From assembly GCF_000003815.2 (NCBI RefSeq), contig NC_049996.1, positions 12,589,131 through 12,653,130 of the forward strand: a stretch of 64,000 bases of DNA. Direction: 5' to 3'. Below the pieces are notes generated by a model. It was given only the letters and a program-made list of their open reading frames with translations. It was not told the DNA's origin and searched no databases. The position numbers were made by a program, and so were the translations under genes. Position 1 is the stretch's first letter, and each line of letters opens with the position of its first letter. Shown piece after piece: positions 10,297-63,203 of this stretch. The DNA comes from Branchiostoma floridae. Lineage: Eukaryota; Chordata; Leptocardii; Amphioxiformes; Branchiostomatidae.

Positions 10297-10513
10297 AGGG
10301 CGCGGTCACCTAGGTCGTGCGATCGTCGTACAATTTTGATGCCATAGGATTTTTAAGCAGGCTGTGACAGAACCAACCACCGGGACCTGGGTTCAAAGCA
10401 GCATTTTGTGTACCAAGACAGTTGAACTTTGCAGGAGACGTACATTTTTGTCCTCCAAAATACCCGAAGTTAGCGATCGCACGACGATCGTACGACCTAT
10501 GTGACCGCGCCCT
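10297..10513. mobile_element. MITE copy 2, about 217 bp, at the stop codon of the carotenoid oxygenase
   Basis: Terminal inverted repeats of about 35 bp: agggcgcggtcacctaggtc on the left and, inverted, agggcgcggtcacataggtc on the right, each followed by cgt(g/a)cgatcgtcg. It has no coding capacity. The right end is flanked by TTA, as is the right end of copy 1, which hints at a TTA/TAA target site; the left flank does not preserve it. Confidence 0.8.
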
Positions 10514-13500
10514 TACACTGGCCAATCCTTACCAAAGAACCTCCCGTGGAAACCAAACGGGATGTAGGTAGGCATGTACGCAGTGTTAATGGCCTTCATT
10601 GTTTTACAATCGAGAATGAGAAGATAGCTTTTGCCCAGTTCGGCGTCGAAAACAGCCGAAAGAAGGACGCCGTCATCTTCGGCTTTCCCGTCGGGATCGG
10701 CGACAAAACTCGGCTCGCTGACGTAATGGTTCGGGTGGTACCAATACAGATCGTTACCAGGGGTGCACAGGTCCTTTTTCACCATAGCGAAAGAACCATT
10801 GAGTGGGTTTGAGGGAGAAAAATCGATAATAACACCGTACACGTAACAGTAATGTTTGGTTCGGTAGTTTTCGTTGATGATCGGAACTTCGATCTTGTGT
10901 AGAAAATCTTCCATAGGGGATTTGCTTCGGAAGGTTTTGGTCTGTACGGTCTTATTGGCTAGGTCAATGGTGTAACGGTAGAGCCTGGACTTAGCCGGTT
11001 TGTCATGTAGACTGGTTAGGTTACGTAACTGAGGGAGCTTATAGTCGGCAAAAACTGCAAAACCTTCCTCAAACTGAACAATATCGGCAACAATCGTACC
11101 GTTTGCCGTTTCGTACGCGTTGACATGATGCGTAAAGAAAATGGCGTCTGTTTGCAACCGTTGTATCTCCCCTGTTTTAATGTTAGCCAGAATAATGGTC
11201 GTCTTGTCTTCAGGGACCCAGTCTATCGACACCATAGCTGTCTCCACTATCTTTATAAAGTCGAAATAGGCAGGCTGGGCAAAAAATATGGCGTAGTTCT
11301 CAGTCAGGGCAAAGCTGTGCATGTATGATGCTCTATCCGTCTGAAAGGTAGCTAAGATTTCGTACGTGTCCAGATCCTTGATCCTTACCACATAGTAATC
11401 CTGTTTCTGTCCTGGTATCATGTTCGGGACCTGTATGTAGTTAATGTTGTTAGTTGTACCGGGTTCGAGTATAGGGTGGGCACAGGACTGAGTTGCAACA
11501 GACTTCTTCACCCCGGTTACACTAGGAACAGATACCCCCAGAGACGCTAACGTCTCCGAGTCAAACTTAACGTACACCCAGCCGTCAGTTAAGGCGGCGT
11601 AGACGCTGTCCTCCCCGTGCCCGTACTTCCAGACGTTGACGTCGGTGTTGTCGTAAGGATACCTGAAGGCGTCAAGTCTCTCCAACTCGCTGAACGGGGG
11701 GTCGACTCCGAAGAACGTGAGGGCGGGTGCGTAACGGTTGGCTTTCTTAGATCTAGGAAAGAAGGAAAAATACGCATTTGTTTGTCAACAGGTGATTTTT
11801 CAATAGGAAGCCTGACTATCTATAAAGCAAGCTTCTAGTACTTCTCTAACTGGTCGTAATGTGCCAGCTAGTAACTCGTAACTAGCTAGTATCTCTTTTT
11901 TAAGATCTTGTGATCTTGTCAAAAACTATTTTGTTGACATGACTGTGTCATTCTTTATGCCAAACAGTAGGAACGTTACAAATAGACACCACCATGTCCC
12001 TGAGAGCGTTGCAAAAGTTTATTCCAAGAGAATACGTACTCTGTACTTTAGGTGCTCCCTGTATGTGGGGCATATGTTGAGGGGTTGCGAAAAACCATGC
12101 AACATAAGACTCCTTTATGCATGGCCTTGTGACTGTAAACCCAGTCCAACCCTGTCATACATAGCCGACCATGGCCTCCTGACCGCCTTCTCCAAACAAT
12201 GGTAGGGAGTTAGCCGTCAGAGCAAGGTCACCCATGGTTCAGAGTTGATCGGCGAGATTGCTTATCCCCCCGTCACATTAGGTGAGGGGGTATTACTAGA
12301 CTTGAAATGTCGTACCAGTCGGGAAAGCCATATCCTGCTCATATATCAGAGGAGCGAACTGGGGCTAGAATAGGATGGATTGCCCGTTAGGCGAACATCA
12401 AATTTCCAAACCGGGGCCCGGCTGGGCTGTTTGTGGAAACGAAAAATAGAATTGTATACATAAAATAAATAATCCTCAGGAGTATTCTCATTGCGTCTTG
12501 TGTAGTTTGGTGCCTTTTACATCATACTTTTCGTTGCTGAAAGCTGCCAGGCCTGGCCCCGGTTTGGAAATGTGACGACTTAATACTCCCAACCCAGCGC
12601 TGAACTTAGTTTGGGAGTGATCAGGAGTAAAAAGTCGTAGGAAGGTCCTAAATGTGTGACAGAGGCTGTAACAAACCTTGTGTAGGCGCTGGTGTCCAGA
12701 AAGGCGGCGGAGAAGTTGACCAGGTGCGGCCCTATCTCCACGCTGTGGAGCTTCGCAAAACCGTCAAATACGTGGATAGCCGAGCGGCCGCCCAGTTCGA
12801 ACAGAGCAGGGGCATTCCGAACCTTCAGGACAAGGAAATCAACCGTTCGGTCATACTTTCTTCTATTACAATTGGGACAAGAACATTGCTGCAACACATT
12901 ATCATTCATTCATTCATTCATTCAAGTACTCTCTTTTGAAATACGCGATCGCCATTCCTTATCTCAACACATAATGTTCGGTAAATTTGATCAATCATGT
13001 ATCTCCGTTACTACTTTATCTATTGTATAATATCATACATATATACTGGGAAGCGTGAGCATCAACTTTAGGAATAATACTATATTTGTCATGATCCTAC
13101 ATTAAAACGCCCTACATCAGAGCTGAATATATAAGTACGTCACAAGACAAGAGTGCCGAAGTTCACCTGCCAACGCATTGTCCAAGGTGAGCAGTGGAAT
13201 TTCGGCCATTTTGTAAAACCCACTCACAAAATCAGTCTTGGGGATCATTGCACCAATTACTAAGCCTTTAATGGTATTTACTACAATGCAATTGGTTGAG
13301 TAATAACTGATATTATTGATCAAATCTAAGTTTCTGCCCGTTTCTTTGTTTAGGCTTCAGCATCAAGCTGCTACTTACCTAGCAATTAAATGGCCTGTGG
13401 TTTGGGTTCTTTGGTGCAGATATCTTAAACACATCGTTTATAAATTTATATGGCGCGTTCTCGGCTTGACTTTTCTAGGCTTTCTACAGCATGGCTGTGA

Positions 13501-27107: not shown

Positions 27108-28434
27108 TTAGGGTTTCTCTCTAGTGTGTTTTGCGAGATGGTGTCCATCCAACTGGGATTTCCGTGCAGCAGAATACTCACACAGGTCACACTTGTGGGG
27201 CCTTTCCCTCATATGGGTTCTCATATGTCGGGATAGGTGAGACTTGCTCACTGCCTTGTATCCACATTCCTCACACTTGTAGGGTTTCTCTCCAGTGTGA
27301 GTTTTTATGTGCTCAGAAAGTTGGGACTTTCGAGTTGCCCTGTATCCACACTCCCCACATATGTAGGGTTTCTCTCCAGTGTGAGTTTTCATATGAATGG
27401 ATAGGTCAGACTTTCTCACTGTCCTGTATTCACACTCCCCACACATGTAGGGTTTCTCACTTATGTGTTTTGCGAGACGGTGATCATCCAAACAGGATTT
27501 CTGTGCAGCAGAATAGTCACACTGGTCACACTTATAGGGCCTTTCCCCGGTATGAGTTCTCATATGTCGGGATAGGTGAGACTTGTTCACTGCCCTGTAT
27601 CCACATTCCTCACACTTGAAGGGTTTCTCTCCAGTGTGAGTTTTTATGTGCTCAGAAAGTTGGGACTTTCGAGTTGCCCTGTATCCACACTCCCCACATA
27701 TGTAGGGTTTCTCTCCAGTGTGAGTTTTCATATGAATGGATAGGTCAGACTTTCTCACTGTCCTGTATTCACACTCCCCACACATGTAGGGTTTCTCACT
27801 TATGTGTTTTGCGAGACGGTGATCATCCAAACAGGATTTCTGTGCAGCAGAATAGTCACACTGGTCACACTTATAGGGCCTTTCCCCGGTATGAGTTCTC
27901 ATATGTCGGGATAGGTGAGACTTGTTCACTGTGCTGTATCCACATTCCTCACACTTGTAGGGTTTCTCTCCAGTGTGAGTTTTCATATGAATAGATAGGT
28001 CAGACTTTCTCGCTGTCCTGTACCCACACTCTCCACATATGTAGGGTTTCTCTCCAGTGTGAGTTTTCATATGATTGAATAGGTCAAACTTTCTCCCGGC
28101 CCTGTATCCACATTCCTCACACTTAAAAGGTTTCTCTCCAGTGTGAGTTTTTATGTGCTCAGAAAGTTGTGACTTTCTTGCTGCCTTGTATCCACATTCC
28201 TCACACACGAAGGGTTTCTCACTAGTGTGTTTCGCGAGACGGTGTTGATCCAAATGGGCTTTCTCTGCAGCAGAATAGTCACACTGGTCACAGTTGTAGG
28301 GTTTTTCCCCTGTATGACTTTTCATATGTCGGGATAAGTTGGTCTTGCGAACCGTCCTGTACCCACACTCCCCACATATGTAAGTTTTGTTTTTGGTGTG
28401 TTTTGTTTCTTCCAATTCCATCTTTAGCTTTAAT
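27108..28434 (-). CDS. C2H2 zinc-finger protein, 15 fingers, complete coding exon
   Basis: A 437-residue frame starts at an ATG at 28421, preceded by a 3' splice site (gtttcag) at 28434, and ends with ...KHTREKP and a stop. After a 10-residue leader it is a continuous array of 15 C2H2 fingers joined by TGEKP-type linkers. Most have the form C-x2-CGYR...H-x3-H. Every fourth is CDQCDYSAA...HRLAKH with an H-x4-H spacing. Such arrays bind DNA; no KRAB, SCAN or other effector domain is present. Fingers 7-10 and 11-14 are an almost exact 339-bp duplication. The first and last fingers are complete. A possible 5'UTR exon ends at a donor (ctcag|gtaact) at 30737. No one-to-one ortholog can be named. 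Confidence 0.94.
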
Positions 28435-29165
28435 CTGAAACAAAGATATAGTACAAGTGGAAATCATTACTGAACAACTTATTCCTGAATCCTCTTAGTT
28501 TTGTATAACTTCATGAAATAAAACAAGAATGATATGCTCCAGTGACATATACATAACTGATGTCAGGCTTTTAGTTTTAGTCAGGCGTGCATCTTTGCGT
28601 CTTTTGGACTTTTTGCTATTCTAGAAATGATGAGAAATTGAATGCCCTGAAAACTGCATAATGATTTGCTTCTAAATGCAATGTTCATGATTGATATCAC
28701 TGAGTTAATTAAATTAAAATAAGATAATATTGTCAAAGGACTGCAATAAACACATTGGATTCTGAAAAGCAAGCTTGATCTATTAAAGCTCTGGCAACGT
28801 CACAGGTAAAAAAACTGAGCCAGAGCAGACGATGTTCCGATGTAATGGTACAAAAGGAACTTGACTGTATGACATAGCCCCATAGGCGTTGCCAAAATAG
28901 CAAAGCACGCGAACCATAAACTAAAATGCGGAAAACTAAGTTGTTACATCGTGCTTACAGCTAATTACTGAGTTTCTGGAACAAATACGAATCTTCAGAT
29001 GATCTACATATATCGGGGGACGTTGTAAGATGATCATTAGAACAGTGGTGGCTCAAAAATCATACAATGAACTTTGCTAAAACAAGAAATTGAGGGTTTG
29101 AATCGACACACATGGCAACTTCGCAAGCAACAGATTCGATTTCTAATGAAAATGAGAGCTCCAGT
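28435..29165. other. probable 5'UTR intron of the zinc-finger gene
   Basis: No coding frame is visible. It is bounded on its 3' side by the acceptor at 28434. The intron may extend to the donor at 30737 and would then contain the long-TIR element. Confidence 0.35.
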
Positions 29166-34483: not shown

Positions 34484-35589
34484 TGCCACAAAAGCTGTAA
34501 CTATAGTTGTAAACTTTATTTCCTGACTCACAGCTGAGTTTATATCATGTACTTTTGGAGGTCAACTCCCATTATTCCCCATGAAAAATATTCTGCAAGC
34601 CAGTAACTTTGCAGAGAGAGGCAAAAATTTCCATTGTGAACAGCATGCATAGAATTAAAATGAGTTTCAAGTCTACAACACGAGTTTAAGTCTATATAAT
34701 GTGTGTTCCGGCCAAGAAAATAGCAACACTATCGTGTTCACTATATGTCTCCCTTAATACCTGAAAAAGAACTACTAACAGAATTACAGTAGTGAGCCGT
34801 ATACATAATTGTACTTCGTCTGGCACTTTGTTCGCTTTTGCTCTGAAATGACAGCACCAAGAAATCCGTACTTACATAGAGAAACTATAATCAAGATTTT
34901 CAACTTTAAACCAGTCAAAGTTATTATAATCATTCAAGCAATAAACTCTTAATAGCAGCTCATTGCGAGGTATAGTTTATGTACAAAGAGTAGAATCATG
35001 TGGGTGATTATAGAATATTGAATATTACATATAATATAAAAAACATCAGAGATTCATAAGAGGTGGGAAAGATACAAAATGTACACACATTGCAAGTCAA
35101 AGATCTGACAGAGTTTTAAACATGTATATACAAAAATGATACACAATTGCTCTTGTGTTCCCAAACACTTGCAAGAGCAAGTAGCAGTGGCTTTCTTGTT
35201 CGTTTGGATAAAAACACAATCTATTTTTCTAGCCCTGCTGACCTTTTCTGTCATCCATGAAATTTGCAGGAAGCTGGAATACAAATTCTATAGAAAGTAC
35301 TAGCCTGATTAAATCTCGCTTATAGCAGCCAGCCCAACATCTGGCTAGCCTCCTAGATGGGAAAGGGCCAGTTACAGCCCCAGACAGCAGAGTTTGTGTT
35401 ACATAGACAAAGACAACAATACAATCTTGGACAGAATTTTGAATGTACAGTAGAAACTTTACAATCAAAACAACTGTGCTATAAATCTAAAAAAGAGACA
35501 ATCTTAACCTTTCTCCTTGCTAAGGTAGCATTTTGGCACCCAAGTTGTATTGGTTACAGGCTTATTTAGCAGGGCAAGGGTTAAAAACC

Positions 35590-38500
35590 TCAGGCTCTCC
35601 TTCCTACACATGTCTGAGGTCTGGACGGCAGCAGTTTTTGTCTACCAACATTTGGAGCAGTTTTTGACTTTTCCTCCTCTTGAATTTGTAGTTCACCCAG
35701 TTTTGCTTCGACCGTCTCTTTCCGCGTGGTCGGCGCGCTGAGCGGTCGGCTGTGTTGGATCTTTTTCTTCTCGTCCAACGCGGGATCGGAGGCTGCTATG
35801 CTGATGTTTGCTCGGTGGCGAGTCTTGATGACATGCTGTAGTGTGTCCTTTGCGGTCTGCACCCTCTCCTGTACCTGAACATCATTTTGGGACTTCACGT
35901 CGTACAGTTCCTCACACTTCGACATGTACCGCTTCCTGTAGGTAACAACAAATGTGAAGATTGACTATCATCTCTGTCTTAACCATGTTTTAGAGGTAAT
36001 GGCATGTGCTATATATGTGTGAGTGAACAAGATATCACAAGAGCGTAAAAGTATCAATGGATTGTGTAGTGTTATGGGGGTGCATCTCAGTTTAATTCAA
36101 GGCTGCACACCTGGTGGCCTTCTCTTCAAGGATGTGTATGGGAATGAAGCATATAAGGCTAATATAGAAACTAAAGAGTTGCAATTACATTAACCTCTCA
36201 AATTTTAGTAAATTTTGATCCAAAAAATATTTTAGGTAAAAAATTATGCCCAACATGTACACTGATATTTTCTATGTCAATTTTCACTAATAAACACATC
36301 CAAGTTTATGGTGTGCACCATTACATATATTAGGTAAAGTAGGCCTAAGAATTTCAAATAAGAAGTAAACAACTTTAAAAGTCAGACATTCCAAAGACAA
36401 CTTACAAGTACAAGATATAGTCATTCAAGCTGCAATATAATAAAGCAATCAACAGTAAAAGATTGCACTGTGAGTGTATCAACTGTACAGTTTTAAAGAA
36501 ATACATGATAAAGTTTAACATACCTTGCAGTACAACACCCTTAGGCTACAGCTTTGCATGACATAGCTTGCCTTTCTTTTGTATAGTATTTTCCTATGAA
36601 AAAGTCCCTAAAAAATCCTCCAAAATTTCCCCCCAGGGGAAATTCCCTTAGAAATGCCCTTACAAATTGGTGAAGTGTAAAAAAAACTATCATGGTGATA
36701 CCTAAAGTATGTGCAAAAATTTGTCCTTGTAACTGGTGACCTTTGACCATATGTTATGATGTCACACTCACAGTGTAATGTTTGACTGCAATTGTTTAGG
36801 CGAAACATTATCTTCACAGTAACATTCCAGACACCTCCCCTTCCCCATTGTAAACAAACAACTGGGCAAACTTGCTACTAACTGGTGAAAAATGCACAAA
36901 AACTACAAACTCTACAATACTTATCTTGAACACATGGCGTTAGTGTTTGGTTTCAAACAGTACTGTAACAGTTACCGGTACACTCAAGCACTATGTACGT
37001 TCGTGCTATACCCATGACTAAATGACCTCTAGCTACTTGACCTTGCACCAAATTAGCATCGAGGTGCCCTTAAGTGGGTACAAACACAATAATACACAGG
37101 TGTGCAGTAAGCATGAAACAGAAGCGGGGAAAATACTGATGTCATGTGCACACACTCGGGAAATTCCACTTTGTGAAACAGTAGCTGGGTCAATACTGAG
37201 TTTTGTGACATGCACACATACTTCCAGGGGAATTCCACTTAGAGGAAAATCCCTCACACAAAAATTTAAACTTCATGGTTAAAGAATGTTTAATATACCC
37301 ACATGTTGCCAACAAATTTGATATACAATATGCCTTTCAATCATTACCCATGTAAATCAACTTGGTTTAAAAATTTTGTAAGTTGTATGTTTAACATATA
37401 AATGAAGTATTGCATCATAAATGTTGGGATCCCCCACTGGCTACAGTACTGTGAACAGTTGGGAATTACCACTGATGTAATGGTTAAATCCAACAAATGA
37501 GAGCATGCAAAATTTTCCATGACTACAAGAAGTTATATACGACCTGGAGTTCCCATGACAAAGAATTTTACAAACAAAAAAGTATATAAAGTTGCTTAAA
37601 GGAGCCAGTCTGAGAATAAACCAGCCTAAGGGTACCTAGCAGGTGGTTAGAGTATATTCCAGTCTTCCAGCCTGTCACTGCGACCAAGTGACCGAGAGTT
37701 CACAGTTGAAAGCACACACCTGTCAATCTAATATTTGAACTTTAGCCGCGGATAAAACTTCGTCAAACTCCAGAATGAAGGAGCTTAAGACTTTCAAGGT
37801 AAGAATTTTAACTCCACCGTTCTCAGTGAAGACTCAATGGACTGATCCTGTCAAACGCCATATTGAACAAATAGAATCCCCTATTCTATTTTGAAAACCT
37901 CTGTCAATAACAAACAACTGAATCCAGTGGATGTAGAGCCTTCAATAAAGAAGCCAGTGACTTTTTCTGCCCATTCTGAGAGGACTTCAGGACTGAAAAG
38001 CCAAACTGAAGTCAGTTAGTATTATCAGTTAAATAGTGTCGGATAGTTCTGTCCTAGTAGTAGTAGTGCTACTTTTGAAGGACAGGTGTTCCAAATATGG
38101 AACAGGGGGCGGGGCTTCTGGATCAGTCCATTCTCTTGCAGAGGGTGTTCGCCCATTGAGGCATTGGCTTAACAGGTATATACAGTTATTTTGTCCATTG
38201 TTTTTAAATGATTAGCATGTGGTTTATTCTGGAAAGATTTTTCTTTTAAATGAGCATTTTTTATTATGAGCACACTTTTGTTCAATGAGCACCATTCTAT
38301 GGGTGAGTTAACCCCAAAATGTGTCACAATTGACACATTGAAACTGCCAATAAGAATCCTGTCTACAGTGACCAGTCCCTTCTGTGGTCTTCTTGGGCAG
38401 TTTTGAATGTACTGCAAATACTTTAAGATTCAGAGTACTGTGAATGCATTCAAGTTCGCAGGGATTCAATTTCCCGGTAGCGGGAAAATGTAGTGTTCGC

Positions 38501-41500
38501 GGTGGTTTTAAGTTCGCAGTAGCGCCATCGACTGTGGTCTCATACTGTAATGCAAAAATGTTCGCGGTGGCCTTAAGTTCACGAAGTGGTCACCGCGAAT
38601 ACTGCCAACATAAAACCCCCGCAAACATTTCAGCATTTACAGTTATATCTGGACTAGTAAGGGGAATCCCCCAGGCAGCCCCATTGTGGCACACATGAAG
38701 ATAAATTAATCTTTAGGCTATTTGTCACTCAGTGACGTCAAACGGAGACTAGCTCTGCAAGACACAGTCCACTAGAGATGTGTCAGTACATGTTACAGCT
38801 ACTAGAGATGTGTCAGTACATGTTACAGCTACTAGAGATGTGTCAGTACATGTTATAGCTACATTCCTGTCAGTACGAAAACTTTTACCTGAAACCTTAC
38901 TGTGGAGGTGTATCTTTGCCAAAGATGAGCATTCAAGTAATTCTTCAGGTAAAAAATGTTGTTTTATGTTCACTTTGATATTGAGCCTTATTCGCGATGC
39001 TTTGTTGTGCGACGTTTACATGTACCTTTTGACAAGTTGGCTGGCGCTCAGTGAATTGACACAATTACCAACTGAAGATAACCGATTTTTAGAATTTAAC
39101 TGTTTAAAACTCAAATGCAAAACAAGTTTCTTTATTTGTCAAGAAAGAGCAATGGTCTATTTGCAATTGTTAATAATGTTTTGTTTTGCCAATCTGGTCT
39201 GATTTTATTTGAACACGCATCACTCGTCTAATTTGGAAAATACTGACTTTTCACCTAACCTTTTGTACTGTACAGCAATTAATAATGTGCTAAACAGTAC
39301 TTGAATTGAAATGGTGTGAATGTTATTTGACAGTAACATTTAGGCTTTTGTTTTACAGATTTGTTTACTTGTTGTTGGCTTGCTCTACACAACAGACAGC
39401 CAAGCAAAATGCACGTTAAAGGAACCAAGAGAAAGGCTTAAAATGAAACGGCTGAACTTGAATCTTCGAACCTTCAACAAAACTGCTCCATTTAAGATGG
39501 GGCTAGAGTTAGCTGCAAATGAGACGGTTTCACAACCAGAGTTATATCCTCACAATGCCAACATGAGAGCTTCTGCACCCTGGAGGTGGGAACTGGATCA
39601 CGATGAAAACCGTTATCCTCCGAACATCGGAGTTGCAGTTTGTGAATCCAAACACTGCTACGACCACCAAAACAACAGGCAAGACGACTCTAATAACAGC
39701 GTACCAGTAAACAGGACAGTGCCAGTTCTTATAAAGGAGAAGATGAGAAAGAATCAAAAGTGTCCCAAGAATGGGAGGCACAAGTACAGGAAAGAGTGGA
39801 TCAGTATTGCTGTGGCTTGTATTTGTGTCAGGCCAAAACTGCCTGAGGATTGAGTCCTCTTTCAACAAACCAGAGCAAGCTGCTAGGGGGCCAAAACCTA
39901 AACCACTTCTTCCTGACTGCAACCAAGAAATCAAGACCTTAAGGGACCAGAGTTGGGGACAATCTGTCAGTGAGTAGCTTGAACCATAAGATTGTACATC
40001 TAAGGGTGTAACTGTATTGCCTATGCAAAGTGGTGGACTTTTCAACAAACTCAAGGTTTGCTTCTCTAAGCTTTAGCATGGAACAAACACCTTGCAATGT
40101 ATGAAAAGAACTGCAACCCCAACCAGTACCATACAGACTGGAGTTCTGCAGGACAGTGAAATGTGTAGAACACTAGGACTCAAACCCATAACCTTGAGAT
40201 CTTGAAACAAGAGCAAAAGACCATGACACATCTGACATATCAAACTTAAACTGATCTTCAGGCCAAGTATCAAGGAGCCAAGAGATTCTACATGACTATA
40301 TGACTAATATATGATTGTATATAATATAGTATTATCTATGTTACCCTAATGATATAGAGCTACTTGACATGTTGTTTGTAAAATGTAACAAGGTTCAAAA
40401 GTCCTGAGTGCTGTATGTTAGTACATGTACATATTGTGAATTTGTGTGCTTACAAAAAAATATTTTTTTGTTATTGATCTTCCTTTTACTTTTCTATTCA
40501 GTAAAAATAGCCTCAGTATTAGACAGGTGGCCACTATAGAATTTCATTTCTTTTCAGTGATTGGGTCAATGGAGAAAAAGTGGCCACAATGGACAGGTGG
40601 TCTCTTGATGTACATTTTATAAAATACAGATGGTAACTATTGCACAATCTACAGTAAATGTAGATAATTGTCTACTGTCAGACCATTCTCTTTCCAGTCC
40701 ATTGTGTGTTCACTTTAGCAAAGTTTGTACTGTAGTTTAAGAGAATATGTAGCCCTTGTGCCATCCTATTTACTACTAGACGGTTTCCATACACTCTCCC
40801 TTAAAACATTGATTTTTTTGACAGCAAGTATTGGAGCCCCAATAGTAAATCAGATGGCACCCAGGCTAGAGAATACATTATACATGTATAATACAATGTA
40901 GGTATTCTTTGTCCCAACCTTAAGTCTGCATTTTCCTGCATGAGGTTGTGCATCCTCTGTCTGTACTTGTCATCCACCTCCGACACTTTCTCATGGAACC
41001 TCTCCTCAAAGTCTATCAGTCTCACGTTCTGGTGTGCAAACATTGGAGAAAACAACTTTAGTATTGAGTGTCAGAGATTTAAAATGTCACAAGTTTACAG
41101 GGAACTTTAAGTCATAAAGTCTAATTTTGTTCAGCAGTATTACTTCTTGAAAACATATACTTAGGCCTACATGATTGTAGTTGTGTTGTGATAATGGTCT
41201 TAGAAAAAAACTTGGGTTAGTGAGGATTCTCTCTTATTTATTTTGGTCCAACTGATCCAACAAGTAACAAACTGAATGTAAAACTGAAATGCATCAGAAC
41301 TGTTATTTTCAACATCATTGTAGTTGTGTATACATTGTACAAATACAAGTAGACAAGATTTGTAGTTCAATAAACTGAGAATTGTGATTTAGTCAACTGA
41401 AGTCTGTTTTGAATTCCTTCACTCAGATGCAGGTAAAAATACTGTGGTCGACCGTCGAACACGTAAACATGAGTCCCAACATTCACTCCAGGCTACCAAA

Positions 41501-44500
41501 AGATACGCACGGGTCAGCAGTTTTCTTGCTAGAGCCCGTCAGGCAACCGGAAACTCAATTTTTTCCTCCTAAGAATAATCAAAACAACCCCAAGCCTGCT
41601 ATGAGCACAACCTACAAGAACATTGACGAATGTGGTACAACGTGAAATACGTAATCAAAACAGATACTTACGGCATCTTGTAGCTCACGTAACGTCCTCT
41701 TAAAACTCTCTGTTGTTTCCTTCAGTTGTTTCTTTGTGTCTTCCAACTCCACACGGGCAATCTGGTACACAAAATAAGGACAAGAGGTTTGGGTTAAACA
41801 CTTTTCTCTACACAGTTATGGATATATCTTCTTCCAAAAAAATGTCAAGGGCAAGCGTGTTGAAAGGCAGAGCCCATCCCCCTCCTTCCATCACATTTTA
41901 CCTCCCAACTGAAGTCAGGTGCCCCTTTTTTACCTGAGTGGGATGAGTAAAGTGGTTTTACCGAGGAATGGAACCAGGGACCACTTGGTCTTGTTTTTGT
42001 CAGTCTAGCCACTCAGCCATTCAATGCTATCAGCAATAAAGAGACCCCTTTGTATGTAAAAATCTTACATTGAGCTCCTCTGTTGTCCTCTTGAGCCTCT
42101 CGAGATCCTGAGCAGCATTAGCATATCTTTTGTTGATCGCCTGCAATAAGAACAATATCAGACATGTTGAACACACTTTAGGCCTCTTTAAGAAAATAGT
42201 ATATCTTTCCAATATTTTCTATATACTTTATAAATCTATATGTTTTGATGGACCGCGTAGCGCAGTGGGACCGTGTTCGCCCCGTGACCGAGCGGTTGCG
42301 GGTTCGAATCCGCCTGCCATATTACCGATCTTGTGCCCTTGGGAAAGGCACTTTACACGGCTTTCCTCACTTTACTCAGGTGAAAATGAGTACCTAGCTT
42401 CGGCTCACGGTGATTTACATCATTCACCCGGACGGGAGACCTGGCGCATATGAAAGGGTATGTCACCCCGTAAGGGGCGGTATAACCCCGTCGTGTGTAA
42501 ACATGTGCAAACACGTCGACCGATGATGTATGTTTGTCTGTATCTCTGTGGATCTGCCGCTACCAGCCCAAAGCTGCCTAGGCAGATCCGTGTAATGGGT
42601 TGTATCATTGGCAAATAAATAAATAAATGTTTTGATGAAAACTATCTTTAATTTCTAACTAAGAAACATAATGTTGAGTAGGTTAGTCGCAGAGGTATAT
42701 GCCTGCAGTAAATAAAAAAATAGGCTCCACATATTGCATTTTTTTGCCTCCATTTGTACCGTACCACATCAATACATGTACTGGTCTTTCCACTTACCCT
42801 TTAAATGTCAGATTGCAATCTGTTAGACTTGCCGAATTTTGCCAGACTGAGTAGAGATTGTAATCTCTGTTGAAGGAGATCACTATCAAGATTTTGGACA
42901 GTTAAAGGTAGTCCTATAGCCTTTTTGAGCATTTAGGAGCAGTGGGTCGTTATCCACTGTTTCTAGGGCACAGTATTGGAAGGCGGGGTCCAACCCTCTC
43001 CTTCAACCAACATTTACCTCCCCACAAATGAAATCAGCTGACAATTATTACACCTGGTGGAGTGACCAAAATCATGTTAAGTGCCTTTCCCAAAGGCAAG
43101 ATTAGTACAGTAAATGCATTTAAGTTTGCGAGGATTTAATGTCGCGGTATCGAGAAAAGGGACTTTTTGCGGTGGCTTTAACTTCGCGGCAGCACCATGC
43201 ACTGTAGTCTCTTACTTCCATGGAAAAATGTTTGCGGTGGCTTTAAATTCGTGGTAAAGCAGCCACCGCAAAAAACGCGAACATTAATCCACCGCGAAAG
43301 TTTCTGCATTTACAGTAGCATGACAGGATCCAAACCTAGGACCTCTTGGCTCTGGGCCAAATGCCCTGCAGTTATGCCACATGACCCCACCAGCAATATC
43401 ACTGCCAGTTACAATAATAGATTCTACCTGTAGAGGGCCTGACTGGAGAACTGTAGATTTTTCTGTGCCTGTGGATATCTAAAAGAAATAACTTTTCAAC
43501 CTTGATCCATGTCACTTTGGATCAATGAACTGACTTGAAATTTAGGATGAATCAATAAGAGACCTTTCCAACACACTCCTAGAACCTTCTCGTTCTTAGA
43601 TACCCCAGATGACCCCATCTGGGGCAAAGTAGGGGGAGAAATGCGGTCTCAAGCTAAGGTGGGCAGGCCTCAAGCCTTGCTTGGAATGGCCCAACTGTGG
43701 GGGCTGTTATTCCTGATCCAAGCCCTGATATATACAATGTAAGTTTAGTAAGCTAACAGAGCTTGATCTATAGTGTGTGTGTATGACCGGCATATCATAG
43801 CTCACGAGTCTGAAGAGACTTGGGAGCTATAATACGGCTGGATACCAGGCTAGTGTAACACATCCTTACGTCTATTTCCCTCTTGTGTTCCCGAGCGATG
43901 GTCTGGATCTGTCTCTTAAACTCCTGGTTCATGGCAGCCTTCTCATCCTGGTGGTCATGGATCAACTGTTTCTCTGGGAAAGAGAAGAACAGAAACAAAA
44001 CGGTCTGTGAGTATGGACACACTTAAGGTAACCACATGTAGTATAATGTTGTGTCTTGAATGTGAAACTTTTTACTGTTTAACACTGACAGTTTATCACA
44101 TTCTCTCGAAATCTCTCCTACACGTACTCATAGGGATGTGTATAACATTATTGATAATTACCCAGTTTCAGTATGGCACCGTAATGACCATGTACATTGT
44201 ATATGTACATGTAGGTACAGGTCTAGAATACCAGAACTGTACCCACTGTACCTAAATAGACTTACACTGAAGTATATTACTTTTTGACTAGTTTTGTTAC
44301 ATGTACTTATGTCTTGAATCATGTCCTCTAATGGTGCAACATAAAGATGAAAATTCAGAATTGGACTTAAGATGAAGATTGTAATGCCATTGAAATCAGT
44401 TTCTAATCAATTTAATGTTGTACATTATTGCATTGCACATTAAGTTATAATTGCCTGTATCTTAACATCAATGCACTTTGAGAAATCCTATCTTTCTGCA

Positions 44501-47500
44501 CAGATGAATTTCATGCATCCTTTAATAGTGACTTACTTTGTTCATATATAGCTGACTCTATTCTCTCCTCAAACTTGAAGTGCAGTTCCGCCTCCTTGTC
44601 TGCCCACTTCTCATCCATCTCCTCCACTATTTGGGTCTGAAATATGATGTTTTAGCAAATAAAGCATTTTTCTAAATAATTGTACATGTACAATGTACAT
44701 CTACTTTTGTTGTCATCATGCAATCAATAAAAGTGAAAGTAAAGTAGAAATAGGTATTTTCCAGGTTTGCATTTAAGTGTACAGTAATTTATGTCAGGGA
44801 AAAATTGTACGAAGGTGACATAACTTGTATGACTGATCATTACATGTTGTTATTGAGTACTGTTTATGTCAGGAACTTCAGGCAATACTGAAACACCACC
44901 TTGCTTTTGCCTAACTTGTACAGTAGATGGAAATGTGTCGAAGACCGTAAGGTGTTAGAATCTCAAGATCTTTAAATCAGGACAAGAGAATTGTCTTGAA
45001 ACATTCCCTACCTTGTAGGTGTCAAAGGAACTTTTCATGAAGTTGAGGTCAGAGGTTAGCCTGTCTGTAAAAAGAGAGAGAGAAAAAAGAATTTAAAACC
45101 TTCATGTATGACATCATAGTTTAATCATTAGTAAAAATGTATAACACTTCACTTTCACATGCACATCCTTCAAGAACTACATTTTTTCCACTGCAACTGT
45201 CAAGATCATAAAGCACATTTCAATCTGAAAGCATTTATAAGAAATGAGGCAAAGTCAAACAGCCACTTCACGATTATTAGCAATATACCTTCCCCAAGAA
45301 GGCTATGGTTTTGTAGCATTTGTAGATGGTACTAGACAGCTTTTGTGCTCGAAAAGAGGTGACGTTACTTTGAGCCCTCACGCAGCTTTCTATTCAACTG
45401 CAGGGGCACTTTAGTTGTAAACTTTGAAACATGATAAGTTAAGAAAGGAAGAACCAATGCTATCAATGTCCCTTACTGTGTATAGCTTCAGATGCAGCCT
45501 TTTCCTGGGCCATGAGTTTTTGCTGAGCAGCCTTCATGTCAGCTATCTCCTTCTCATACTCATCCTCCAGCCTGTTCATCTCTTCTTCATGTCTCATGTT
45601 CAACTTCTCTTCTCTCTTCTTTAACTCTTCAGCAGCCTGTAATCATACGGAAAACAGTCATAAAACTTGCTAACATTTGTACATATTTTAGCTACAGAAA
45701 TTTCCGACAACTAATATTGCTAACATGAACCGGCCTAATTTGCTGCCGATTTAAAAGAAGGTTTACGAATCTCCTATGGTGGTAAGATAATTTCCACAAA
45801 CATATCTCTTAAACTTATTTTCTGGGATTCAAGTTCACAGACTTGGAGGCAGTTAGCATTGTTTAAATGAAGATAGAATTCTAAAACACCGGTCACAGTC
45901 AGATACTCCATCAAATAGAGTATCGCCCATTCACCAGTTTTCACAGACAATCAGGTTCAGCTTTGGGTCAAGACCCGTACCTGATCCTCTGGACCTGAAC
46001 CAGACCTAGACCTGGATTTTCAGTACCAATACCCACCCCTATTCAGAATGATGTCAAACAACACAGATGAACTTTTAAGCTATGTTGTGCTTTCCTCATT
46101 GTCTTACCTGTTTCTTAGTGTCCCTATGATTGAGCTTCTCTTCTTCCAAGTAGAGAGTCAGATCTGAGATCTGCTGGCGCAAGCTACTGATCAGGTCTTG
46201 TCTGGAGTTGGAAGAAAGGAGAAAAAAGTCTGTGAATATTTTCCACCCATTTTTACCCCGTGCAATTATATAAACTTTGGTATTGTATGGAAATGAAATA
46301 CATTTTGTAATAATAGAAATATTACATGTACATCATAATAGCAAAAACAGCTTTTTACTGTTTTCTACAACAAAACAGAATGTGACAGTCATTGAATAAA
46401 AAATACATGTTGAATGAATAAAGCAGAGAAAACAAGGAATACATGATATTGTACCCCGTACATATCAACGACAGCAAAATATTCTAGATAAAAATACAAT
46501 ATCCAGGGTTACATTATGTACATGTACTCACGTTGCCTGGTCAAGTGTATGGGTTGGCACTTCTTTCTTGGGCGGATCAAAGAAGCCGTCTGTTTTTATC
46601 GTCATGGCAACCTTACTGCGACTTCTTGATAACACGTAACCAGGAGACACTACAACTGGGATGGGGGACTCCTGGGGACAGGAGAAACAAGAGTTTGCAT
46701 CCTATTACTGGACTGTAATGTCTGATTAGTGACTAGTTCTAGCACCTCTGACCTCTACTTCCTGCCCATCAAGGGTGGATGGGTGCCATGAACTTTCTAC
46801 AACTTAATAATATTAACTTAAACTACTTAACAAGTAACACAGTCTATCAGTATGACAGAAGCACAAAATCACAAGATGGCAAAAGACTAGTACTGGTGTT
46901 GGATAGTAGAAAATTTGAGAAAGTCCAATTTGTGTTGAAAATCTCAGTTCAAATTTACTTCAGAATTGTCCATCATCAAGTTGAAACATTCTCTTACACA
47001 GAGGCTCACCTAAAGCCCATACAATATGTGCTGAGGAGGATCTGCTAAACTAGGCTAAGGTTTTCACCTTAAGGTAAGACATGTGCTCTAGCAGCTGTCA
47101 GCCAATCAGAGAATACCCAAACTTTTTCTTCAGCCTGTTCAGGTAAAGCTGGTCCTCTGATTGGCTGACAACTGGACAGAGGTCACACTTTAACCTAAGG
47201 TGGAAACCTCAGGTCAGCATAGCAGACCCTTTCCGAGGTACATTTGTACAGCGGGTGTAGGAGAATGATCCAAACTTGTATGTTTTTTTGAGAAATGTCC
47301 AGTCCTGACCTCTCTACTCTGCGGCTGTTTGGCCCTCTTGACTGGCAGGTGACTCTCCAGAGTCCTGTGTCTGATGGCCGTACTGGTGGAGGGGCGGGGC
47401 TCGGTCTCATACGGCTGTTTGTCTGCGCTGATCTGCTCAGGCTCCACCTGGTCCAACCTCTCACATCTGGAACAAACAATTTGATAGACAGTTTTACAAC

Positions 47501-50500
47501 TGTTATTAACTGTCTCTATGGCAAAATACAAAAATATAGCCTGATTAAGTTAGCAAAAAAATTTAAAACCCACAGAGAGATCCAGCACATTTTCCTCATG
47601 TCATAAACAAGGCGAATCTTTGTGGTTTTCTTGGTCAGCATTGTCGTGGCTTGCTTCTCCACTTGTGTCTTTGTCCAGCAATATCTTCAAACCAGAGAGA
47701 CTGTTGACAAACAAGCAAGCATCCTCTCCACTGTCAAATCACAGTTTTCTCCAACACTTGAAGTGTGACATCTGTTGCTGTCCTTAAGACTGATACTTAA
47801 GAAGTGCCTGCATCTTGAGGGTACTTGGGGCATGCGTTGATCCTTCCAAGAAGCAGCTCCTCAGATACAAAGCTTCCGATCATCGTCCTGAATCCTCTTT
47901 GAGTAGAGGGCCCTAAACACTAGGGCGATGCTTGGTCCAACATTGTACAACAGTGATGCATGCACCCCATACAGTAAGAAAACGGCCCATACTCTGGCGT
48001 TGAATGAATGAGTGGCTTAAGATTCACGGACACGAGATCGTGAGGTCAGGGGTTTGATTCCTGGCATCCATGGCTAGACGTTGTGACCTTGCAATTAGGT
48101 AAGGCACTTTTCTCAGTCCTCACTCCGTCCAATGTAAAATGGCTAATTGACTTCAGTCGGGGAGACAAAAGGCAGTGGTTGGAGATGGTTGGGCTTCAAC
48201 CACCAATGCTGTGCCCTTGACACAGTGGATAACAACCCACTGCCCCTTCGGCCTCAAAAAAGGCTATAATAGGACTACCTTTGCCATCTTACCAACTCCT
48301 CAGCATAAAATAGCCACAAAATCGCAAACTGACATCATCTGCAGCTGGTTTGCACAACAGATTACAAACAACACGAGGTCACATCTCCATGGAGACAAAC
48401 TGAAGTATGGCCGCTATAAAACTCCGTTCATTAGCGACACGTTATTGCGTCTGTCTGTCCACTGACACCTTCCTGCCGTTTCTGGGCATCCCAGTAGAGC
48501 TCACGATGTTTGTCCTGACCCCCGAGGACGCTATAGCCGGCCAGCTGCGGGTATCGCTTGGTCGATCACTGTTTGTCGAAGACAGAAAATCTCCCTCTCT
48601 TGACCCAAGGTTTGAAAAGCTCCTTGCTTCTAAATCAAACCCTCCTTCTTGAAAACTTCAGCTGTAGCACTCTTCAGTATCTAGTCAAGCTTAACAAAAC
48701 TGGAGTTTCTTGAGCTAACTTTGTTGCAAAATTTAGCAACGTAACACATACAGGACCTACATGAAATGGAACCTCTTTGCATATTATGTATGTCAAAGGT
48801 CTTTCCAGACACAGAGAATGAGGGTGTTACAGAATTGATCCTTGTGTTTGGTATTCCAGCTGGAATACAGGCTATTGTACCCATTTGTTTTGAAATTGAC
48901 AACTGTGCAAATTGTAGCAGCATTTCGTTTCTAAAACTAGAGGCATTAGATGACTGTGTACTATTGAAAATATAATCCCTATAAGCCCTGAAACACGTTA
49001 TTAGTTATATTTGTGACAGGTTCTTTCTGTAACATTCCTTTCCCTTTATCCATGAACATACTACCATCTATCAAAACTTAGCATTGCCATAGAAACCACT
49101 TGACTATTGCTGTTCAAAATTGAACCAGTAGTTCAAGTTCATTGAAGAGACTGAGTCATGTTAAGTGTGCATGCCTCTTGGAAAGTAAAAAAAGGTCAAT
49201 TGTACAAAACATTCAATTTGTGATTTTGAAGAAGAAAAAAAGAAGGATGAAAGAAAAAATAAGATGGTCTCTAGAAGTTGTACAGTGTGGCTGGTTGCAC
49301 AAGCAGCTTGCCAAACAAGTTTGTGAAGTCTTTATCCATTTGTCTATCAAATACTGGATACTGCTATTTTGGAAACTGTATTGACCGCTAACCAACAATT
49401 CCACATCTGATATTACTGTAAATGCAGAAATGTTTGCAGTGGTTTAATGTTCGCGGTTTTCACAGTGGCCACTTCACCGCAAACTTAAAACCACCACAAA
49501 CATTTATCCATCATAGTATGTGACTACAGTCAATGACACTACCGCAAACTTAAATCCACTGAGAACGCTCCATTTTCCCACTACGGCGAAAGTAAATCCC
49601 CGCAAAACTTAAATGCACTGAGTAACAGAAAAATTACTTATAAAAAAAAATCAAGCTCAGCCAAGTTGTAAAGGCTTACAACATACAGTCAAACCTGTAC
49701 AAGTGACCACTTTGTGGTGGTCCCTTATTAAATAATTTTTCCCATTGGCGCAATGCTGTCTATATAGTGACTACCAGGTCCACAAAGACCATATTCTAGC
49801 TATACCTTAAGTGGTTTTCTTGGGAAGTTGACTGTACTTTTAGCATGAGAACCTGTCTAGACTATGTCAAACATGTCCTCCGTCTGAAGTATACTACAGC
49901 ACACTAATTATACTCAGCTCCAAAACTTACGCTTCCTGCACATGAATGGTGGGGACGTGTTCCAGCGGAGGGAGCTTTGCCTTCGCCGGCTCCAGTTTGA
50001 TCCCGTACAGCGATCCGAATCCAGACAGAAGCGCGCTCAAGAGTCCTTGGTTCGACATAACTACCTGTTGACGATGTTACCGAATTCTCACACTAACCAA
50101 AACAACTGATGGTTGCAAAATGGTCTTTTTGTAGACACAGGGTCTTTGTTTGACTTTAGGAGAAAAGAGATTTGAACATTACAGAATTGATTTTAACTCA
50201 AGACTTGAAAACGTTTGGGTACTTTAGAAAGCTTATAAACCTTCCCTAAAACAACTTTCTCAAACAGAACAACCATTCAGTTCAAAACAGTCATGATTTC
50301 TTCAATGCAAAAGACATTTTCGAAAGGCAACCATCTTGTTTGACGTCTCTGCCTTGAAGGCTGCCCCCATTATGAAGATGCAAGAGAAAGTGTTGACTCC
50401 ATACGTGCCTGTACTATGGCAAAATCGACAGTTGCTATTTGAACAGGCAGAGGTAAACGGTGCCGTCAATCGTCCTGTGACGGCAGGTATGTTAACACAG

Positions 50501-56500: not shown

Positions 56501-56812
56501 CCCTCCCTTAAATTTGGCACTTGATCAATGTGTTACAGATTTCTTTATTCAAAGTACTGTAAATGCAGAAATGTTCGCGGTGGATTAATGTTCGTGGTTT
56601 TCGCGGTGACCACTTCACCGCGAACTTAAATCCACCGCGAACATTTTTCTATTATGGTATTAGACTGCAGTCTACGGTGTTGCCGCGAACTTAAATCCAC
56701 CGCGAAAAGTCATTTTTCCCGCTACCGCGAAATTAAATCCCTGCAAACTTAAATGCATTTACAGTAGTACATTGTAATGATTCTTCAAGACATTTGTCTT
56801 ACCTCCTGTCAT
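35590..56812 (-). CDS. FLACC1: FLACC1 (ALS2CR12) ortholog, coiled-coil flagellar protein, long isoform
   Basis: Fourteen exons join without a phase conflict to 580 residues: 56803-56812, 53968-54151, 51966-52088, 47310-47466, 46532-46671, 46108-46201, 45477-45636, 45012-45064, 44537-44636, 43870-43973, 42069-42140, 41672-41761, 40919-41028 and 35590-35935. All junctions are GT-AG. Landmarks shared with vertebrate FLACC1 are VSPGYVLSRSRS, LISSLRQQISDLTLYLEE, FDTYKTQIVEEMDEKWADK and, near the end, NLMQENADLRRKRYMSKCEEL. The N-terminal third is Pro/Ser-rich; about residues 195-500 are heptad-rich coiled coil; the C-terminal tail is basic and Ser/Pro-rich. Vertebrate FLACC1 is a testis protein of the sperm flagellum; a structural flagellar role here is inference. 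Repeats fill the introns, and the ~5-kb last intron holds an IL-17 gene on the other strand. Confidence 0.92.
36637..36646. promoter_or_regulatory. kappa-B site (GGGAAATTCC)
   Basis: A perfect match to GGGRNWYYCC, within the 12-bp palindrome GGGGAAATTCCC, 2.3 kb upstream of the IL-17 start codon. Confidence 0.45.
37158..37167. promoter_or_regulatory. kappa-B site (GGGAAATTCC)
   Basis: A perfect kappa-B decamer in the first half of a ~70-bp tandem duplication (shared gtgcacacac and gaaacagtagc motifs), 1.8 kb upstream of IL-17. Confidence 0.45.
37227..37236. promoter_or_regulatory. kappa-B site (GGGGAATTCC)
   Basis: A perfect kappa-B decamer in the second half of the same ~70-bp duplication, with a variant core, so duplication alone has not simply copied it unchanged. 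Confidence 0.45.
38436..38644. mobile_element. palindromic ~210-bp MITE, copy 1
   Basis: Ends tactgtgaatgc and gcatttacagtta are inverse copies. The interior repeats gttcgcggtgg and its complement, so the whole element can fold on itself. It lies about 280 bp before the IL-17 start. Confidence 0.85.
38661..38670. promoter_or_regulatory. proximal kappa-B site (GGGGAATCCC)
   Basis: A perfect kappa-B decamer 255 bp before the IL-17 ATG, only 16 bp beyond the end of a palindromic MITE. This is the best placed of the four for promoter function. Confidence 0.5.
38772..38861. repeat. 30-bp tandem repeat, three copies
   Basis: The unit is actagagatgtgtcagtaca plus tgttacagct, nearly exact. It falls between the proximal kappa-B site and the IL-17 first coding exon, so it may be leader or promoter sequence. 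Confidence 0.9.
38925..39853 (+). CDS. IL17: interleukin-17 family cytokine, complete, two exons
   Basis: Exon 1 (38925-38948) ATG AGC ... CTT CAG|gtaaaa joins in phase 0 to exon 2 (39359-39853; acceptor gttttacag), giving 172 residues. The junction falls inside the signal peptide, MSIQVILQ|ICLLVVGLLYT, with likely cleavage near 25. The mature part shows the IL-17 fold signature: PWRWELDHDENRYPPNI (85-98), VAVCESKHC (Cys103, Cys108), VPVNRTVPVL, and WISIAVACICV (Cys162, Cys164). The four cysteines match the canonical IL-17 cystine-knot set; Cys26 and Cys143 are extra. N-glycosylation sequons occur at 48, 62 and 126. It is a secreted ligand for IL-17 receptors in mucosal and antimicrobial responses. 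It lies antisense inside the last intron of FLACC1. Subtype (A-F) cannot be assigned. Confidence 0.95.
39854..40918 (+). other. IL-17 3' region within the FLACC1 intron
   Basis: Presumed 3'UTR followed by intron. A tRNA-like B box in reverse (gactcaaaccc near 40170) may mark a SINE fragment. No further coding segment is visible. Confidence 0.35.
41865..42025 (-). mobile_element. tRNA-derived SINE fragment (family 2)
   Basis: On the minus strand it reads a tRNA-like head (gaatggctgagtggctagac, then ggttccattcc) into the family body (cacctgacttcagttgggag, then tggaaggaggggg). It sits in the FLACC1 intron next to exon 41672-41761. Confidence 0.6.
42251..42626 (+). mobile_element. tRNA-derived SINE (family 1), intact, with 11-bp target duplication
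   Basis: The head has an A box (tagcgcagtggga) and a B box (gggttcgaatcc). The ~300-bp body ends in an (AAAT)n tail. Flanking copies of atgttttgatg at 42240-42250 and 42627-42637 are a clean target duplication, so the insertion is relatively young. It lies in a FLACC1 intron in antisense. Confidence 0.9.
42925..43395 (-). mobile_element. tRNA-derived SINE (family 2) split by a MITE
   Basis: The minus-strand head (gtggcataactgcagg, then aggtttggatcc) lies at 43318-43395 and the body and tail (gggaaaggcacttaac ... ggataacgacccactg) at about 42925-43105. The palindromic MITE at 43106-43317 interrupts it exactly between these parts. Confidence 0.75.
43106..43317. mobile_element. palindromic ~210-bp MITE, copy 2, inserted in a SINE
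   Basis: Ends tacagtaaatgc and gcatttacagta, with internal gcggtggcttta repeats. Insertion in the SINE makes it younger than that SINE copy; TA ends suggest a TA target site. Confidence 0.88.
47048..47215. mobile_element. short foldback element
   Basis: Arms of about 60 bp are inverse copies: ttttcaccttaaggt and gctgtcagccaatcagag on the left, ctctgattggctgacaac and aacctaaggtggaaac on the right, with a ~40-bp loop. Located in a FLACC1 intron. Confidence 0.75.
47998..48290 (+). mobile_element. tRNA-derived SINE (family 2)
   Basis: Head with A-like box (gaatgagtggcttaagat) and B box (gggtttgattcc), then body (ttggagatggttgggctt) and the family tail ggataacaacccactgcccc ending in aaaaaaggctataa. 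It is the most complete of the four family copies. No clear target duplication was found. Confidence 0.75.
49414..49624. mobile_element. palindromic ~210-bp MITE, copy 3
   Basis: Starts tactgtaaatgcagaaatgt. Its degraded right end is aacttaaatgcactgagta. Internal gttcgcggt and accgcaaac repeats are retained. It lies about 300 bp from the alternative first exon of FLACC1. Confidence 0.85.
49931..50058 (-). CDS. FLACC1: alternative first coding exon of FLACC1 (short isoform)
   Basis: ATG at 50058 opens 42 codons (MSNQGLLSALLSGFGSLYG, ending VPTIHVQEA) and a consensus donor GC|gtaagt. Its end phase (2) equals that of the 51966-52088 exon, so either can splice to 47466 (A TGT GAG AGG). If the upstream exon were spliced into this one, the likely acceptor would give a stop or break the frame, so the two starts appear mutually exclusive. 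The short product would have 517 residues, with the Pro-rich N-terminus replaced. Confidence 0.7.
52680..52768. repeat. 18-bp tandem repeat, about 5 copies
   Basis: The unit is ttttgtgaacaagactat with single-base variants, in the FLACC1 intron between exons 51966-52088 and 53968-54151. Confidence 0.9.
54152..56554 (-). other. FLACC1 intron, nothing else recognised
   Basis: AT-rich intron between the first two coding exons. A dispersed motif near 55920 (aagcaaaacttaaatcctgttgtt) resembles one near 52970 (aagcaaaatctaaatccggttgtt), suggesting an uncharacterised repeat family. Confidence 0.4.
56555..56766. mobile_element. palindromic ~210-bp MITE, copy 4 (best preserved)
   Basis: The ends tactgtaaatgc and gcatttacagta are perfect inverse copies. 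The interior is built from gttcgcggtggatt and aacttaaatccaccgcga in alternating orientation. Its end is only 36 bp from the FLACC1 start exon (56803). Confidence 0.92.

Positions 56813-60639: not shown

Positions 60640-63203
<2,564 letters not shown>

Follow-up and report, generated by a model that had tools for sequence, protein, structure and literature searches.

An IL-17 gene nested antisense in the final intron of a FLACC1-like gene in the lancelet Branchiostoma floridae

In a 64,000-nucleotide stretch of the Branchiostoma floridae genome (NC_049996.1, positions 12,589,131 to 12,653,130 of the forward strand, assembly GCF_000003815.2; hereafter, the window, which contains no N), a two-exon gene encoding an IL-17 cytokine lies on the plus strand between the last two coding exons of a minus-strand gene that resembles vertebrate FLACC1. 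The two genes have uninterrupted reading frames and compatible splice phases, and they lie on opposite strands. We consider it probable, judging from the sequence, that this is a functional, independent IL-17 gene, antisense to the single lancelet FLACC1 and contained in its final intron, with the nesting tolerated and any interference at most a by-product. The IL-17 gene itself is most likely autonomous and induced by immune stimuli, its place within FLACC1 being fortuitous.

The host gene was assembled through a filtered minus-strand scan for coiled-coil-like exons, followed by reading of translations and exon flanks; the splice-donor weights, kappa-B consensus, and poly(A) signal list used throughout were entered by hand. 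It consists of 10 coding exons (46671 to 35590, all phases compatible) that specify 422 amino acids and a stop codon, as follows.

46532..46671, minus strand: FLACC1 coding exon, the most 5' resolved (phase join)
46108..46201, minus strand: FLACC1 coding exon (phase join)
45477..45636, minus strand: FLACC1 coding exon (phase join)
45012..45064, minus strand: FLACC1 coding exon (phase join)
44537..44636, minus strand: FLACC1 coding exon (phase join)
43870..43973, minus strand: FLACC1 coding exon (phase join)
42069..42140, minus strand: FLACC1 coding exon (phase join)
41672..41761, minus strand: FLACC1 coding exon (phase join)
40919..41028, minus strand: FLACC1 penultimate exon (phase join; donor AAG/GTTGGG)
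35936..40918, minus strand: FLACC1 last intron, host to IL-17 (4983 bases, between phase-joined exons)
35590..35935, minus strand: FLACC1 last coding exon (phase join; stop TGA)
34515..34520, minus strand: candidate FLACC1 poly(A) signal AATAAA (motif on the FLACC1 strand)

The initial annotation of this DNA had joined the exons at 41028-40919 and 35935-35590 in phase and had likened the result to the end of the vertebrate protein. The coordinates are confirmed: the split codon AG/G encodes R, and the lancelet join reads ...ENADLRKRYMSKCEEL. The 8 exons upstream of the penultimate one are likewise in phase, and translations of 46660-49500, upstream of 46671, yielded no start codon or N-terminal exons.

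FLACC1 (also ALS2CR12) is a coiled-coil protein of the sperm flagellum. The human sequence used for comparison was entered by hand, and the name given to the lancelet gene depends on it. With composition adjustment, blastp scored the pair at 82.8 bits (E 2e-21 in a one-sequence database); without it, the score was 120 bits, versus at most 51.6 bits among 500 locally shuffled copies. The resemblance to the vertebrate C terminus holds, in that the alignment crosses the 40919/35935 junction ungapped in a block ending SKCEEL (ENIHLKQKIISKNEEI in the hand-entered human sequence, ENADLRKRYMSKCEEL in the lancelet). Because the lancelet protein matches no PDB chain at E<=1 (phmmer), generic coiled-coil similarity is unlikely to account for this score, and we rejected a generic coiled coil on that ground together with the margin over the shuffled copies. 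The similarity to the hand-entered human FLACC1 exceeds coiled-coil composition, as expected of an orthologue. Genome searches, which covered 513,431,437 bases in 431 contigs and scored the best candidates only, returned 9 matches to the FLACC1 protein among 37 scored candidates, all within this locus.

Within the host intron (35936-40918) and opposite to FLACC1, the plus-strand gene encodes 172 amino acids in an intact frame. Its parts and associated signals are as follows.

37775..37798, plus strand: IL-17 coding exon 1 (MKELKTFK, 8 codons from the ATG), with strong donor AAG/GTAAGA
38925..38948, plus strand: possible alternative IL-17 first coding exon (MSIQVILQ), weakly supported (phase 0, donor CAG/GTAAAA)
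39359..39853, plus strand: IL-17 exon 2, with the IL17 domain and stop codon (Pfam and PDB chain matches)
41369..41374, plus strand: nearest canonical AATAAA past the IL-17 stop codon, beyond FLACC1 exon 41028-40919

The protein matches the Pfam IL17 family (PF06083) with an E value of 2.6e-21 and 76.2 bits, versus a curated cut-off of 24, and the domain exon matches PDB chains of IL-17F (E 1.8e-9) and, more weakly, of IL-25 and IL-17A. These matches bear out the proposal of a complete antisense IL-17 gene and led us to reject a chance open frame or pseudogene; a complete two-exon coding gene does lie, on the opposite strand, inside a FLACC1 intron. As to the accompanying claim of a signal peptide and canonical cysteines, 5 cysteines align with those of IL-17F and a 6th lies N-terminal of the aligned part, and the start is signal-peptide-like (hydrophobic core ICLLVVGL) as judged from hydropathy only. 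The aligned cysteines are of the IL-17F type that forms a cystine knot. With the alternative start at 38925-38948, the leader would be just as hydrophobic, and 2 such first-exon candidates were seen in the intron, a number reached by 4.7% of 300 crude shuffles (of non-overlapping dinucleotides) and hence not clearly above chance.

How far the IL-17 transcript extends bears on how fully it is nested. Variant poly(A) signals lie nearer the stop codon than the canonical one (AATATA at 40306 and 40323, AGTAAA at 40500, and others). If the signal at 41369 is used, the transcript would run antisense to FLACC1 exon 41028-40919; it may therefore overlap that exon rather than stay wholly intronic. As to origin, retroposition is unlikely because the gene keeps an intron. 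Repeats of at least 25 bases in the host intron amount to 2 direct families and 2 inverted pairs, none of which convincingly brackets IL-17 as an insertion scar would.

Upstream of the coding exons lie two features of a candidate promoter.

36637..37435, strand not assigned: NF-kB-like cluster of 5 distinct GGGRNWYYCC sites upstream of IL-17 (pattern scan)
37583..37590, plus strand: IL-17 TATA box, TATATAAA (motif)

The TATA box would place the transcription start near 37613, and no upstream ATG occurs from 37600 to 37775 before the start codon. The GGGRNWYYCC pattern has 19 matches in the window versus 3.23 expected, a count reached by 0 of 100 shuffles; many overlap or are palindromic, and together they mark 13 distinct places. 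Five of the 13 fall within the cluster directly upstream of the TATA box, and 1 more falls in IL-17 intron 1 (38661). With 13 sites placed uniformly, 5 within 800 bases anywhere has a P value of 0.0002 (20,000 draws; post hoc). Two similar units of ~65 bases, with one kappa-B-like site apiece, were seen by eye at 37112-37240. A genome DNA search with 36500-37500 (very common words skipped) matched only itself, and 36501-37790 showed no similarity at E 0.01 to the stretches around 12 IL-17 paralogues. The TATA box and the site cluster point first to an independent IL-17 promoter.

Those paralogues come from a search of the genome for the IL-17 family, which gave 13 matches among 21 scored candidates, 12 of them besides the nested gene. 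With the nested protein itself as the query, the matches were self and two others, which lie on different contigs and share 44% and 38% identity with it. No second copy of the locus was found among the best candidates scored in searches by DNA, IL-17 protein, or FLACC1 protein. The closest paralogue found (L024 5563-6846, C8) occupies the final part of an open frame of 428 codons, in which a repetitive Glu/Arg-rich stretch precedes the domain. Another IL-17 match (C6:19424750), considered as a possible further nested case, lies ~8.5 kb from the first match to PF00152, a class II tRNA synthetase family (C6:19433353, same strand). Table 1 of PMC4517768 includes a B. floridae gene model that fuses IL-17 with lysyl-tRNA synthetase, and our guess is that the C6 pair is that model. 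The same table holds 8 B. floridae IL-17 entries, none of which could be matched to the nested locus.

A dispersed repeat lies in the intron of the IL-17 gene.

38430..38650, strand not assigned: high-copy repeat resembling a miniature inverted-repeat transposable element, in IL-17 intron 1 (genome DNA search)

This element, ~210 bases long, has 4 copies in the window (38430-38650, 43098-43316, 49409-49617, and 56556-56766). Genome-wide, it has 2733 first-look candidates, 40 of which, when scored, gave 40 long matches of 81-100% identity, including self, and 10 partial ones. Its presence might suggest that IL-17 is an unexpressed duplicate, or a pseudogene left behind in the intron. We find this extremely unlikely, since the frame is intact, the cysteines are conserved, the donor is strong, and there is a TATA box but no upstream ATG; moreover, because identity to the nearest relative found is just 44%, the nested gene is not a recent copy. 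The same intron also contains three tandem copies at a 30-base spacing (38771-38862), and a FLACC1 intron contains sequence that by eye resembles a tRNA-derived short interspersed element (42240-42480).

The intron that holds IL-17 is the longest of the 9 resolved in FLACC1, which measure, 5' to 3', 330, 471, 412, 375, 563, 1729, 307, 643, and 4983 bases. Its donor at 40919 (GTTGGG) scores 4.0, the weakest of the 9 scored FLACC1 donors (5.1 to 11.2 for the other 8), and 11% of the 8390 GTs in the window score 4.0 or above. An alternative penultimate-exon donor at 40978 scores higher (5.1), yet its join to 35935 is, by our own arithmetic, out of phase. A donor this commonplace, with the frame beyond it open to 40801, would also suit two genes that are adjacent and not nested, FLACC1 reading through to a stop near 40801 and exon 35935-35590 belonging to another transcript. 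We think this arrangement distinctly improbable: the 40919/35935 join is in phase, the match to the hand-entered human FLACC1 passes through it ungapped, and the last exon, preceded by the acceptor ctacag, carries an open frame of 114 codons.

The same donor enters into a further explanation, in which IL-17 transcription actively regulates FLACC1: during inflammation, production of a short 3' transcript, or polyadenylation occurring too early in the intron with the weak donor, would reduce the full-length form. Four FLACC1-strand AATAAA motifs lie inside the intron (39204, 39131, 38260, and 38223), a number that is, however, close to expectation from base composition (about 3-4 per strand, a rough estimate). 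The first in-frame ATG of the last exon could start a C-terminal fragment of 111 amino acids. Precedents exist in ceh-10/polq-1 of Caenorhabditis elegans (PMC12274878), where a nested gene can give rise to a shortened version of its host, and in human nested genes that induce intron retention, exonization, and cryptic polyadenylation of their hosts (PMC3192792). The human cases described there, however, concern some of the tandemly arranged nested genes, oriented like their host, and the C. elegans authors favor a functionless by-product. Active regulation of FLACC1 by IL-17 is, in our estimation, unlikely.

We return to an independent IL-17 gene tolerated within FLACC1, against which several observations weigh. 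The weak GTTGGG donor makes the long host intron less certain than the other FLACC1 introns. The kappa-B-like cluster was spotted by eye ahead of testing, and it is no general feature of IL-17 genes, since only 1 of the 12 paralogue neighborhoods is as rich (L028, 9 sites in 10 kb) and 2 have no sites (L022 and L032). Site density across the 12 neighborhoods is 2.48 per 10 kb, versus 1.16 in the window outside 36000-39400, a rough comparison because two pairs of stretches overlap (by 4 kb and 0.5 kb) and some contain runs of N. In favor of the explanation, a lancelet IL-17D is listed as up-regulated after poly(I:C) in Branchiostoma belcheri (PMC5752451), a gene that may or may not correspond to the nested one, and the mean co-expression of opposite-nested pairs in C. 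elegans is below that of neighboring non-nested genes (PMC12274878).

If an independent gene is indeed what the locus holds, IL-17 would be transcribed from its own intronic TATA promoter, with NF-kB/Rel acting at the upstream cluster on immune challenge, and its product would be a secreted cystine-knot cytokine. FLACC1 would be expressed in ciliated cells or germ cells from a distant upstream start, and splicing would remove the part that holds IL-17. The two genes would mostly be used in different cells, so that the nesting would be tolerated, and the presence of IL-17 regulatory DNA inside the intron would make the pair hard to separate thereafter. Interference or shared regulation, raised by the initial annotation, is possible. 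As a by-product, it could arise if the IL-17 promoter fires bidirectionally and yields a short FLACC1 3' transcript, or through premature ending or retention at the weak-donor intron. By analogy, the C. elegans precedent predicts such a short transcript when IL-17 fires, and we infer that firing toward lower coordinates would enter the FLACC1 last exon, where the first ATG is in frame (111 amino acids). A stronger version, in which the promoter is an immune-inducible bidirectional switch, with NF-kB driving both IL-17 and a short FLACC1 3' mRNA (111 amino acids) and with full-length FLACC1 truncated at the weak donor of its last intron, strikes us as very improbable; if true, it would mean that inflammation directly remodels a sperm/ciliary gene. 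For a tolerated, independent IL-17 gene, any change in FLACC1 isoforms is predicted to be confined to sites of IL-17 induction. Should the pair prove to be conserved among lancelets, it would offer a clean natural experiment on the coexistence of an inducible immune gene and its host gene.

Elsewhere in the window, stretches resembling RPE65/carotenoid oxygenase occur on the minus strand at 10513-12909 (PF03055, E 1.2e-70, above the cut-off, and 1.4e-4, below it), and two long C2H2 zinc-finger arrays flank the locus (27108-28463 and 60744-62049, both on the minus strand).

The suggestion that the arrangement was unreported agrees with the literature searched as far as the pair is concerned, but does not extend to its class. 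The open-access literature searched contained no description of an IL-17 gene nested on the opposite strand of an intron or of FLACC1 with IL-17, and nothing on ALS2CR12 in amphioxus, and for antisense nested genes in amphioxus it yielded a single general review; sections 11 and 14 of PMC4517768 make no mention of IL-17 nesting. The FLACC1/IL-17 pair thus seems undescribed in that literature, but genes nested on opposite strands are well known. C. elegans has 567 opposite-nested pairs, involving 5% of its protein-coding genes, and their mean co-expression is below that of neighboring non-nested genes (PMC12274878). Among 158 human protein-coding nested genes, only about a third are tandemly arranged (PMC3192792, section 6, citing Yu et al.), opposite orientation is the commonest for nested genes (PMC3933685), and many vertebrate gene overlaps are lineage-specific (PMC2151771).

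Each member of the lancelet pair resembles its known counterparts. The host protein shares with FLACC1/ALS2CR12 (human sequence entered by hand) the VSPGY region, a coiled-coil stretch, and the block ending at SKCEEL, but its C-terminal tail past SKCEEL is longer. The nested gene has the IL17 domain, signal-peptide-like start, cysteine pattern, and few introns of the IL-17 family (PF06083; PMC4517768). As an arrangement, the pair is like ceh-10 in polq-1 of C. elegans (PMC12274878) in comprising a complete opposite-strand intronic gene and, probably for the lancelet pair too, a host with a germ-line role and a nested gene under its own regulation. There, however, the coding region of ceh-10 does not share a host intron with its regulatory elements, and the consequences for the host were measured, whereas in the lancelet the nested gene is a cytokine and the pair is known from sequence alone. 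In Drosophila, 2mit is likewise an opposite-strand intronic gene, in timeless2, and an intronic regulatory site is proposed to hold the two together (PMC3786989); that nesting has been demonstrated in a range of Drosophila species and also in Apis, whereas the lancelet pair is known from one genome. Opposite-strand nested pairs are known in hundreds in animal genomes, and FLACC1/IL-17 is one further example.

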